A DNA stretch of 64,000 nt from Dehalococcoidia bacterium (GTDB lineage: Bacteria; Chloroflexota; Dehalococcoidia; DSTF01; JACRBR01). A program made the position numbers and the translations under genes. Below, one piece after another: positions 44,603 to 48,124 of this stretch. The notes beneath the pieces were generated by a model, which was given only the letters and a program-made list of their open reading frames with translations, searched no databases and had not been told where the DNA came from. Within the stretch, counting starts at the first letter, position 1; each line of letters opens with the position of its first letter. The DNA is taken from contig JAJTXQ010000049.1 of the NCBI GenBank assembly GCA_021462855.1, positions 1-64,000 on the forward strand, given 5' to 3'.

Positions 44603-45313
44603 ATGTCCGCATCTACCACTCGCCCGCGCCGGGCCGTGAAGGCCCGCAAGGTCCCCGCGCGCGGCAACCGCTGGCTCATGCCGGCGCTCATCGCCGGCGC
44701 GCTCGGCGTCGTCGCGCTGTTCATCGGCATCCAGACCTTTGGCGGGTCCGACAGCAAGATCCCGGCGCGCGTCGCTACCGGCGAGGGCCGGGTGCTCGGC
44801 GACGCGAACGCGCCGGTCACCGTGATCGAATACGCCGACTTCCAGTGCCCGGTGTGCAAGCGCGCCGAGAGCTCCATCATCTCGAAGATGGAGGAGGAGT
44901 ACGTCACGTCGGGCAAGGTGAAGATCGAGTTCCGCATGTTCCCGTTCATCGGCCAGGAGTCGTTCGATGCCGCGCAGGCGGCCGAGGCGGCGCGGGAGCA
45001 GGGCAAGTTCTGGGAGTACCACAGTGCGCTGTTCAATGCGCAGGGGCGTGAGAACGGCGGCGCGTACACGTACGACAAGCTCGTCGAACTGGCGAGGGAG
45101 GTTGGCCTCGACGTCGCGAAGTTCGAGGCGACGCTGAGCGCCAACACGTACCTCGAGGCGATCCAGAAGGAGGCCGACGAGGCGCGGGACGCCGGCGTGA
45201 CTTCGACGCCGACGTTCTTCGTGAACGGCACCAAGATCGTCGGCGCGCAGCCGTACGGCACGTTCCAGGAAGCGATCGATGCCGAGCTGGCAAAGGTGAA
45301 CGACCCACAATGA
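44603..45313 (+). CDS. membrane-anchored DsbA-like thiol-disulfide oxidoreductase
   Basis: The 236-residue protein has an N-terminal anchor (about 24-45) and a DsbA-type thioredoxin domain. The active site is CPVC at residues 82-85 ('IEYADFQCPVCKRAE') and the cis-proline loop is in 'GVTSTPTFFVNG'. It should introduce disulfides into exported proteins. GGAGG precedes the ATG. Its stop overlaps the VKOR start by 4 bases (ATGA), which couples the oxidant to its recycling enzyme. Confidence 0.92.
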   Translation: MSASTTRPRRAVKARKVPARGNRWLMPALIAGALGVVALFIGIQTFGGSDSKIPARVATGEGRVLGDANAPVTVIEYADFQCPVCKRAESSIISKMEEEYVTSGKVKIEFRMFPFIGQESFDAAQAAEAAREQGKFWEYHSALFNAQGRENGGAYTYDKLVELAREVGLDVAKFEATLSANTYLEAIQKEADEARDAGVTSTPTFFVNGTKIVGAQPYGTFQEAIDAELAKVNDPQ

Positions 45314-45774
45314 ACGCGGGATTCGTCCGCGCGCTGCTCCCGCTCGCGGGCGTCCTGTCCGCCGTCGGTCTGGGCGTGGCGATGTACCTGACGGTGACGC
45401 ACTACGGCGACCAGCCGATCGCCTGCAGCGGGCTGGGCGACTGCGACTACGTGAACAGCACGGAGTACGCGAAGCTGGCGGGCATCCCGGTGGCGCTGCT
45501 CGGCGCGGGCGCGTACGCGACGATGCTGCTGCTCATCGGCGCCGCCTGGCTGCGGCGCGCGGCGACGGCGCTGGCGCTCGCCTGGGCGACCGGGCTGGCG
45601 GCATTCGCGTTCTCGGCGTACCTGACGTACGTCGAGCTGTACGTCATCGACGCGATCTGCGTGTACTGCGTTGTCTCGGCGAGCGTCATGACCGCGCTGT
45701 TCGTCGTGCTGTCCGCGGCCGTGATCGCAGCAAAGGATGACATCTTCGGCGTGGCTGATCTGGCGCTCGACTGA
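45310..45774 (+). CDS. vitamin K epoxide reductase (VKOR) family protein
   Basis: The 154-residue protein has four transmembrane helices. The loop cysteine pair is Cys39/Cys45 ('ACSGLGDCDYVNSTEYAK') and the active CxxC is Cys117/Cys120 ('ICVYC'). It reoxidises the DsbA-like partner using quinone, the bacterial alternative to DsbB. A hairpin terminator follows 25 bp after the stop. Confidence 0.93.
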   Translation: MNAGFVRALLPLAGVLSAVGLGVAMYLTVTHYGDQPIACSGLGDCDYVNSTEYAKLAGIPVALLGAGAYATMLLLIGAAWLRRAATALALAWATGLAAFAFSAYLTYVELYVIDAICVYCVVSASVMTALFVVLSAAVIAAKDDIFGVADLALD

Positions 45775-45867: not shown

Positions 45868-45873
45868 TATACT
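45868..45873 (+). promoter_or_regulatory. -10 box (TATACT) of the GNAT leader transcript
   Basis: TATACT lies 29 nt before the leader-peptide GTG and would place the transcript start near 45880, just before GGGAGGAG. A -35 is not clear (TTTGCG with a 20-bp spacer is the best). CTCCCG/CGGGAG (45872-45889) is a 6-bp inverted repeat that could mask the ribosome site if transcription began further upstream. Confidence 0.6.
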
Positions 45874-45896
45874 CCCGTCAATTCGGGAGGAGCGGT

Positions 45897-45995
45897 GTGC
45901 GCATCATGGGTATCGCTTCAGCATCACCGGCGACCGCACGGCCGCGGGCCACGCGTTGCGATGCGCCGGACATGACGCCTGTCTGCGCCGACTGA
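45897..45995 (+). CDS. regulatory leader peptide (32 aa) of the GNAT operon
   Basis: A short frame starts with GTG 6 nt after the ribosome site core GGAGG (45886-45890) and ends with TGA at 45993-45995. The peptide starts MRIMGIASASPATA, contains Arg-Pro-Arg-Ala-Thr-Arg at residues 15-20, and ends DMTPVCAD. Its last codons lie in the 5' arm of the first leader hairpin (45977-45989), so ribosome position would control folding. The R-P-R triplet matches the +x+ pattern at which macrolide-bound ribosomes stall in known resistance leaders. An alternative start is the ATG at 45906. Coding status is inferred from signal placement, not homology. Confidence 0.6.
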   Translation: MRIMGIASASPATARPRATRCDAPDMTPVCAD

Positions 45996-46052
45996 TCCGG
46001 GGGACAGCACAGGCGCAGACAGGCCCGCTGGCGACGGCGGGCCTGTTCAGTT
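45977..46052 (+). promoter_or_regulatory. transcription attenuator: antiterminator and terminator hairpins
   Basis: Hairpin I pairs GCCTGTCTGCGCC (45977-45989) with GGCGCAGACAGGC (46012-46024), 13 perfect pairs. Hairpin II pairs ACAGGCCCGC (46019-46028) with GCGGGCCTGT (46037-46046), 10 perfect pairs, followed by TTCAGTTCTC. The six bases 46019-46024 belong to both, so only one can form. A ribosome at the leader stop would block hairpin I and allow the terminator-like hairpin II. A ribosome stalled upstream would leave hairpin I free and permit readthrough into the acetyltransferase genes. Confidence 0.7.
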
Positions 46053-46071
46053 CTCGAAGGGAGGAGCGCTG

Positions 46072-46626
46072 ATGATCGAAGGCACCCTGGTCAACTTGCG
46101 GGCGATGGAGATGGACGACCTCGAGCGCAACGAGGCCTGGTTCAACGACATCGAAGTCACGCGATACCTCGGCCGGGGATACGGGATCTCGCGCGCCGCG
46201 GAGGAGGCCTGGATGCGCCAGCGAGCGGGCAGGCCGGTGGCGTTCGATAACGCGGCATTCGCCATCGTCATGAAGGATGGGCGCCACATCGGCAACGCGG
46301 AGCTGTTCGGCGCGTCGGTGGAGGACCGGACGGCGGAGGTCGGCATCACGATCGGCGACCGGTCGTGCTGGTCGCAGGGCTACGGCTCGGACGCGCTGGT
46401 GACGCTGCTGCGCTTCGGCTTCGACGAGATGAACCTGAACCGGGCAGAACTCAACGTGCTCGCGGCGAACGACCACGCGATCCGCTGTTACGAGCGATGC
46501 GGATTCGTCACCGAGGGGCGCAAGCGGCAGGAGGCGTACCGCCATGGCGCGCACCAGGACGTGCTGATCATGAGCGTGCTGCGGGACGAGTTCTACGCGC
46601 GGCACGGCGCGACCGCGGACCGATGA
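46072..46626 (+). CDS. GNAT acetyltransferase (first of tandem pair)
   Basis: The 184-residue RimJ/AAC(6')-like N-acetyltransferase has the acetyl-CoA site 'SCWSQGYGSDALVTLLRFGF' (Q/RxxGxG/A type) and 'NDHAIRCYERCGFVTEGRKR'. GNATs acetylate protein N-termini, amines or antibiotics. The attenuator upstream suggests induction when ribosomes stall, which would fit a drug-modifying role, but that is inference. AAGGGAGGAG precedes the ATG. It overlaps the second GNAT by 4 bases (ATGA). Confidence 0.88.
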   Translation: MIEGTLVNLRAMEMDDLERNEAWFNDIEVTRYLGRGYGISRAAEEAWMRQRAGRPVAFDNAAFAIVMKDGRHIGNAELFGASVEDRTAEVGITIGDRSCWSQGYGSDALVTLLRFGFDEMNLNRAELNVLAANDHAIRCYERCGFVTEGRKRQEAYRHGAHQDVLIMSVLRDEFYARHGATADR

Positions 46627-47171
46627 TCGAAGGAACGCTCATCAACCTGCGGCCGCTGGAGTCCGGCGACATCGACCGCGTCTACGCCTGGATCAACGAC
46701 CGCGAGGTGACGCGGCACCTGAACATGCGCTACCCGATCTCGCGCCTGGCGGAGGAGAACTGGCTGGGCGAGCGCGCGGCGACGCCGCTCTCGTACGCGA
46801 ACACGTGGTTCGCGATCGAGACGAAGGACGGCACGCACATCGGCAACGTGAACTTCCACGAGGTGCACCCGGAGAACCGGAAGGGGCACCTCGGCATCAT
46901 GATCGGCGACCGTTCGTACTGGTCGCGGGGCTACGGCGCCGATGCGCTCGTGACCTTCCTCCGGTTCGCGTTCGATGAGATGGACCTGCGGCGCGCCGAC
47001 CTGACCGTCGATGCGGACAACGCGCGGGCGATCGCGTGCTACCGGAAGGTGGGGTTCGTCGAGGAAGGGCGTCTGCGGCAGGCGCGGTACGCCCGCGGGC
47101 GCTACGTCGACCAGTTGTGGATGGGCATCCTGCGCGCCGAGTTCGAGGCGCTGCACGGCCGGGGCGCTTGA
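46623..47171 (+). CDS. GNAT acetyltransferase (second of tandem pair)
   Basis: The 182-residue paralogue of the preceding gene shares the start 'MIEGTLxNLR', 'NDxEVTR', 'KDGxHIGN', 'IGDRS' and 'FDEMxLxRA', and is about half identical by eye. The acetyl-CoA loop is 'SYWSRGYGADALVTFLRFAF', followed by 'NARAIACYRKVGFVEEGRLR'. The ATG overlaps the first gene's stop (ATGA). Both are therefore controlled by the same leader and translated together. Substrate is unknown; divergence in the N-terminal acceptor region suggests different specificities. Confidence 0.88.
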   Translation: MIEGTLINLRPLESGDIDRVYAWINDREVTRHLNMRYPISRLAEENWLGERAATPLSYANTWFAIETKDGTHIGNVNFHEVHPENRKGHLGIMIGDRSYWSRGYGADALVTFLRFAFDEMDLRRADLTVDADNARAIACYRKVGFVEEGRLRQARYARGRYVDQLWMGILRAEFEALHGRGA

Positions 47172-47197
47172 CAAACATTTGTTCTAGCAGGTAGGCT
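47168..47197 (+). promoter_or_regulatory. promoter of the radical SAM gene
   Basis: TTGACA (47168-47173), an 18-bp spacer and TAGGCT (47192-47197) form a sigma-70 promoter; transcription would start near 47204. Two SOS-like boxes overlap the spacer and the start region. Confidence 0.65.
47173..47184 (+). promoter_or_regulatory. SOS (LexA) box 1, AAACATTTGTTC
   Basis: It matches the GAAC-N4-GTTC LexA operator except for A at the first position. It overlaps the -35 end and spacer, a position that would block RNA polymerase. The lexA gene of this window carries a box with the same deviation. Confidence 0.55.
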
Positions 47198-47208
47198 GAA
47201 GCCGGTTA

Positions 47209-47220
47209 GAACAAATGTGC
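47209..47220 (+). promoter_or_regulatory. SOS (LexA) box 2, GAACAAATGTGC
   Basis: It matches GAAC-N4-GTTC with one mismatch (GTGC). Together with box 1 it forms 12-bp perfect inverted arms (47175-47186 and 47207-47218) around the -10 box and start site. Confidence 0.5.
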
Positions 47221-47230
47221 GAGGCGCACC

Positions 47231-48124
47231 ATGCCGGACGTGATCTTCGAGGAAATCGAGTGCAAGAGCGCCATCACCCGCGTGAGCGCCGGGCTGAACA
47301 TCGGCTTCCGCTGGATGCTGAACCCGTATCGCGGCTGCCAGCACGCGTGCGCGTACTGCTTCGCGCGCGGGTCGAACGAGCGCCCGGGATACGGGACGGG
47401 GCGCGACTTCGAGACGCGCATCATCGTGAAGGTGAACGCGCCGGAGGTGCTGCGCCGCGATCTTGACCGGGAGGGCTGGCGGCGGGAGCTGATCGGCATC
47501 GGCGCGGCGTGCGACCCGTACCAGCCGGCGGAGCTCAAGTACTCGCTCACGCACCGCATCCTGAAGGCGCTTCGCGACTATGCGAACCCCGTAATGCTCG
47601 TCACCAAGTCACCGCACGTGGCCCGCGACGCGGACGTGCTGGAGTCGCTGGCGGCGGTCGCGGACGTCACCGTCAGCTTCGGCATCGCCACGCTCGACGA
47701 GGACGTGTGGCGGCGCACGGAGCCCGCGACGGCGCCGCCGGCGAAGCGCCTCCATGCGATGCGCCTGCTGGCGGAGCGCGGCGTGCGGTGCGGCGTGCTG
47801 CTCGCGCCGATCCGGCCGGGGCTAACCGACGAGCCGCGGTCGCTCGAGGACGTCGTCGAGGCATCGCGGGAGCACGGCGCGTCGTTCGTGCACGACAACG
47901 TGCTGTATCTGAGGCCGGGGACGAAGGAATGGTCCCTGCCGGCCCTGCGCGAGGCGTATCCGCATCTGTCTGAACGCTACGCGCGGTACTACCGCGGCGC
48001 CCATGCGCCGAGGACGTACACCCAGGATGTCCACCGGACGGTCGAGGAGTTGCGCCGGAAGTACGACATGGCGCCGCCCGGGCGCGCGCTACCTTCGGCC
48101 GGGCAACTGCAGCTCGCGATTTGA
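47231..48124 (+). CDS. Rv2578c/SplB-like radical SAM protein
   Basis: The 297-residue protein has the [4Fe-4S] cluster motif CxxxCxxC at Cys36, Cys40 and Cys43 ('NPYRGCQHACAYCFARG'), followed by 'IGIGAACDPYQPAE', 'VMLVTKSPHVARDADVLESL' and 'RCGVLLAPIRPGLTD'. It belongs to the radical SAM group that includes spore photoproduct lyase and mycobacterial Rv2578c, which is reported in the mycobacterial LexA regulon. The SOS-like boxes in its promoter point to a DNA-damage role. The reaction is unknown. GCGAGG lies near the ATG. Confidence 0.87.
   Translation: MPDVIFEEIECKSAITRVSAGLNIGFRWMLNPYRGCQHACAYCFARGSNERPGYGTGRDFETRIIVKVNAPEVLRRDLDREGWRRELIGIGAACDPYQPAELKYSLTHRILKALRDYANPVMLVTKSPHVARDADVLESLAAVADVTVSFGIATLDEDVWRRTEPATAPPAKRLHAMRLLAERGVRCGVLLAPIRPGLTDEPRSLEDVVEASREHGASFVHDNVLYLRPGTKEWSLPALREAYPHLSERYARYYRGAHAPRTYTQDVHRTVEELRRKYDMAPPGRALPSAGQLQLAI

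Follow-up and report, generated by a model that had tools for sequence, protein, structure and literature searches.

The stretch analysed (the window) comprised 64,000 nt of a 3.0-Mb draft genome (G000) of a Dehalococcoidia bacterium. It opens inside a 23S rRNA gene, which is followed by a tRNA gene and a 5S rRNA gene (1-1348). Two tandem genes for GNAT acetyltransferases, overlapping by ATGA (46623-46626), are preceded by a leader region at 45868-46071 (Table 1). A DsbA-like thioredoxin gene and a VKOR gene (44603-45774), likely a pair for disulfide-bond formation, lie immediately upstream of the leader.

On the other side of the operon, two inverted copies of AGAACAAATGT (47175-47185, minus strand; 47208-47218, plus strand) flank the -10 region of an Rv2578c-like radical SAM gene at 47231. 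Two matches to AGAACAAATGT were found in none of 100 shuffles of the window. We take GAACAAATGTTT to resemble a LexA (SOS) box of the Gram-positive type, and the radical SAM gene may therefore be controlled by a repressor.

Table 1. Features of the leader and the acetyltransferase operon in the window
Feature	Position	Strand	Basis or remark
-10 promoter element TATACT	45868-45873	+	Read from sequence; recurs in relatives
Shine-Dalgarno-like site of the uORF, GGGAGGAG	45885-45892	+	Sequence
Putative regulatory uORF, 32 codons	45897-45995	+	GTG start 45897; TGA stop 45993-45995; peptide MRIMGIASASPATARPRATRCDAPDMTPVCAD
Predicted antiterminator 5' arm, within the uORF end	45977-45989	+	Inverted repeat; partner-specific pairing
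Predicted antiterminator 3' arm	46012-46024	+	Inverted repeat
Terminator 5' arm	46019-46028	+	Inverted repeat; covariation
Terminator 3' arm	46037-46046	+	Inverted repeat; covariation
Weak T-rich terminator tail	46045-46055	+	T at 3 of 9 positions; at 6 of 9 in several relatives
GNAT acetyltransferase 1	46072-46626	+	Acetyltransf_3; SpeG-like predicted fold
GNAT acetyltransferase 2	46623-47171	+	Start overlaps GNAT 1 stop

The -10 box, the ribosome site, the 32-codon frame and the two hairpins were all found where the original prediction had placed them. The antiterminator arms form a perfect 13-bp inverted repeat and the terminator arms a perfect 10-bp one, with six bases (46019-46024) common to both. 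A 13-bp repeat was reached in none of 400 dinucleotide shuffles of the leader region (maximum 11, median 7). The uORF could also start at an in-frame ATG (45906). No convincing -35 element was seen at the locus, the best candidate being TTGCGA, 19 nt upstream. TATACT stood at a nearly equal distance from the uORF start in four relatives (G001, G002, G003 and G005). The T tract of the window copy is poor (TTCAGTTCT), and a simple terminator scan missed this terminator. The -10 element, the frame, the terminator and the antiterminator all recur in relatives, so the arrangement is more than chance.

Both GNAT proteins belong to Pfam Acetyltransf_3. The best fold matches of the AlphaFold model (mean pLDDT 89) were SpeG spermidine N-acetyltransferases, the top few with TM scores by query length of 0.80-0.83 at about 25% identity. 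Two chains labelled as aminoglycoside acetyltransferases, elsewhere described as putative acetyltransferases of Bacillus cereus, stood with SpeG entries at the head of the profile search. The NCBIfam SpeG model, the cut-off of which is 218 bits, scored the GNATs at 45-55, and none of the NCBIfam AAC(6') models scored above 47 bits, their cut-offs being 250 or higher. Sequence and predicted fold point first to polyamine acetyltransferases of the SpeG type. Antibiotic modification is at most a candidate activity of the two GNATs.

The GNAT gene was present in all eight genomes of the family, mostly as a tandem pair, and 17 of the 18 genomes in the order had it. A close relative is the Dehalococcoidia metagenome assembly JADMII010000007.1. 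By profile search, 78 of 393 Dehalococcoidia genomes carried a strong homologue. Upstream regions were taken from 69 further GNAT genes, and one layout (promoter, uORF, stop, terminator, GNAT) was found in 32 GNAT upstream regions from six families: the window copy and 31 relatives at the same place. Thirteen of these leaders came from the order, seven from family f61, eight from f36 and four from f5; one f5 member (G059) has an enzyme that groups with the f36 enzymes in the tree. The 32 leaders were initially chosen by eye, and a detection rule was written later.

In the 32 leaders, the uORF was 26-42 codons long, and the distance from its stop to the terminator was 19-35 nt (median 24, SD 3.8; 29 nt in G017). 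The 5' arm of the terminator bore GGCCC or a near variant. Most uORF starts had either a Shine-Dalgarno-like site or an ATG 12-16 nt past the start of the -10 hexamer. The latter spacing, with no ribosome site, was seen in about 19 leaders, as would be expected of leaderless messages. The occurrence of two modes of initiation at the same place indirectly suggested translation of the uORF. Three genomes of genus g5, which belongs to the family of the window genome, lacked the uORF: G006 retained only the promoter, G007 the promoter and the terminator, and G004 nothing clear.

The original prediction had called for covariation in both stems, and an alignment of 20 leaders was used for the terminator. 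Its stem was paired in 90.5% of the cells versus 84.7% in shuffles, none of 500 being as high. The covariation score was 0.334 versus 0.216, and sliding the partner destroyed the signal. Two inner pairs showed three or four pair types. An intrinsic terminator between the promoter and the first structural gene, as in known attenuators, was seen to covary across relatives.

For the antiterminator, column-wise covariation was not significant in the MAFFT alignment, which visibly misplaced the arms. Because of this misplacement, an alignment-free swap test was adopted for the 32 leaders. The end of each uORF paired with its own terminator arm at -23.6 kcal/mol, versus -19.3 kcal/mol with the arms of swapped species; none of 20,000 permutations matched this (z -7.5). 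The effect persisted when near-duplicates were removed, inside the order and inside f61 (p 0.009). In families f36 and f5, the antiterminator did not rise above the control. Covariation thus held for the terminator and failed as a column count for the antiterminator, the pairing of which was nevertheless specific to its partner. The mutually exclusive hairpins claimed from the single sequence appear to be conserved across the class as a geometry.

The same pairing was made from different sequences in three genomes: GCCTGTCTGCGCC/GGCGCAGACAGGC in G000, GGGCC + GGAGTTCC with GGAACT + GGCCC in G013, and GGGCC + CTTTCG with CGAAAG + GGCCC in G003. The antiterminator core usually lay about 30 to 10 nt ahead of the end of the stop codon. 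The predicted antiterminator shares an arm with the terminator and has its 5' arm within the last codons of the frame, both of which are features of attenuators.

Tested against dinucleotide shuffles for duplex energy, 15 of the 32 leaders fell individually below 0.05. On the nascent RNA, the uORF was predicted to hold the terminator arm with a probability above 0.9 in 29 leaders, versus 12.4 expected from shuffled uORF ends. With no ribosome, the antiterminator was predicted to form in 29 of 32, falling below 0.5 in G015, G283 and G059. Equilibrium folding of the whole leader favored the terminator in most sequences, which suggested that the switch must be co-transcriptional.

The fixed rule (a terminator, a uORF stop 15-40 nt before it, the pairing and a promoter), written after the leaders had been seen, found 25 of the 32 leaders and none of 50 other GNAT upstream regions. 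Among 139 long ORFs of the window it was positive for one, this uORF. A scan of 1.18 Mb (39%) of the own genome gave -38.2 kcal/mol at this locus and three chance-level matches at -18.2, two of them at the same site; no comparable second site was found in that portion. With covariance model R1, applied to 20 genomes to look for a wider regulon, matches below 1e-6 were solely ahead of this GNAT family. An Rfam search of the window gave no leader family above the gathering score, only rRNA and tRNA, and PADLOC gave no match.

The weak R1 matches (12 inspected) looked mostly like ordinary terminators after genes. A weak match of the covariance model (L180, G017:C52:32892-32988) is a T-box-like leader (GGTGGTACCGCGG ... 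terminator). At another of these matches, L179 (G005:C217:3258-3351, minus strand), a GGCCCG terminator with a long run of T comes immediately after a promoter-like TTGACA...GATAGCGT. It precedes a purA-like gene with no evident uORF and is possibly a separate attenuator.

All 32 leader-bearing rows of an 89-protein GNAT tree fell in a single clade of 62 rows (support 97/92), together with 25 genes with no attenuator and five second genes of pairs. Since the clade holds attenuator-free genes as well, repeated loss and several gains are each possible. The leader was absent from homologous GNATs in eight inspected genomes of other Chloroflexota classes. By eye, the homologues lacking the leader at L183, L187 and L189-L191 lie just downstream of what appears to be the end of a MeaB/ArgK-type GTPase gene (C-terminal part), which places the enzyme family in another operon context. 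Taken together, the comparison of sequences gave good support to the attenuator as an evolved regulatory element.

What the uORF senses was addressed with the peptides. The original prediction had a macrolide-bound ribosome stalling at Arg-Pro-Arg (residues 15-17), that is, a drug-specific arrest peptide. The last codon of this motif is followed about 30 nt later by the antiterminator arm, which a stall would leave free; hflXr of Listeria is controlled through an RLR uORF (PMC6310831), and R-x-R occurs also in G005 and G002. On the other hand, Arg-Pro-Arg was not conserved among the leaders, and [RK]x[RK] was present in 8 of 32 versus 7.3 expected by shuffling, which is the level of chance. 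The peptides drifted with no alignable motif, and replacement codon changes equalled or exceeded silent ones in most close pairs (five compared, of equal frame length). The proposed macrolide stall thus did not hold up, and we regard it as very unlikely. A conserved Arg-Cys motif, at first suspected within the order, could not be followed into other families. Attenuation of the trp/his type, which has the same hairpin geometry, would call for repeated control codons, but no amino acid was consistently repeated in the 32 leaders. The enriched residues (A, P, S and T) are in keeping with a GC-rich open frame under weak constraint. The earlier view that the leader is no simple amino-acid sensor was borne out, and this is the least probable of the readings considered.

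Slightly harder to credit than a macrolide stall is a sensor in which ornithine, polyamines or a related compound slows translation of the uORF. It would match the enzyme, the best fold and most of the best sequence matches of which are SpeG spermidine N-acetyltransferases, and leader-controlled polyamine genes such as Salmonella speF are known. Known arrest peptides of the metabolite type, however, require conserved residues, and the leader peptides have no residue in common; moreover, a ribosome stalled at the stop codon would cover the arm, so that the operon would be turned off. A terminator that is leaky and unregulated, next to a reading frame that arose by chance, would fit the weak terminator of the window and the long open frames that GC-rich DNA yields. 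This is very improbable, given the nearly fixed distance from stop to terminator in 32 leaders, the partner-specific arms, and the absence of the pattern from the 50 other GNAT upstream regions and the control ORFs.

We consider it quite probable, then, that the SpeG-like GNAT operon has in this region a ribosome-mediated transcription attenuator of its own, the hairpins of which are presumably switched by ribosome occupancy. RNA polymerase would transcribe the uORF with a ribosome following behind. A ribosome reaching the stop would cover the antiterminator 5' arm in the last codons; with this arm masked, the terminator about 24 nt past the stop would fold and transcription would end. A ribosome with the usual bacterial footprint, standing at the stop, would cover much of the core and leave a terminator at least 19 nt downstream free. 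If the ribosome were stalled or slowed earlier, or the uORF were not translated, the free 5' arm would capture the 5' arm of the terminator, and polymerase would read into both acetyltransferase genes. Loss of uORF translation should therefore switch the operon on, as expected from the antiterminator being predicted in most leaders in the absence of a ribosome.

Length, stop position and RNA pairing are conserved, unlike the codons and the peptide, and for this reason a general failure to complete translation is the most likely signal. The uORF would then most likely report completion of translation in general rather than one drug or amino acid. Ribosome-targeting drugs, starvation and other translation stress are candidate signals. 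More tentatively, the leaders may form a class-wide attenuator family, mostly with leaderless uORFs, that senses peptide-independent translation to the stop and couples general translation stress to the acetylation of polyamines or related compounds.

The layout is deeply conserved and follows a measurable geometric rule, with the stop about 24 nt before the terminator and the arm under the terminating ribosome. Being apparently independent of the peptide, it would offer a clean natural example of a sensor of translation in general. Should translation inhibition prove to be the inducer, the GNATs would belong to the response to translation stress of a large group that is mostly uncultured. In the open literature that was searched, no paper was found on attenuators in Dehalococcoidia, and none evidently tied a SpeG-like acetyltransferase to leader translation. 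The leader seems to be a real control element that had not been reported before, of a general type that is familiar.

By its sequence, the leader has the structure of ribosome-mediated attenuators and lacks the marks of macrolide arrest or of amino-acid attenuation. As in the trp and his attenuators, the terminator and the antiterminator share an arm, and the 5' arm is inside the leader frame; unlike them, it has no repeated control codons and no demonstrated protector hairpin. hflXr/rli80 of Listeria likewise combines a short uORF with a terminator and an antiterminator, but that uORF has 14 codons and an RLR arrest motif (PMC6310831), whereas those described here have 26-42 codons and no conserved motif.

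Compared by description, the leader resembles that of lmrC of Streptomyces lincolnensis, in which translation of uORF2 is needed for the premature terminator, control is transcriptional, and drug-stalled ribosomes favor the antiterminator (PMC8546547). Removal of the uORF start there resulted in constitutive expression (PMC8546547). lmrC controls an ABC-F protein and not GNATs, and its uORF2 partly overlaps the terminator, whereas the stop here lies about 24 nt before it. The uORFs of the actinobacterial whiB7 leader and of toiL in E. coli sense several classes of ribosome inhibitors and not one drug (PMC12121999). toiL frees a ribosome-binding site and thereby prevents Rho-dependent termination (PMC12121999), whereas the output here would be an intrinsic terminator. 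By analogy with toiL and whiB7, several ribosome-directed drugs could induce the present leader.
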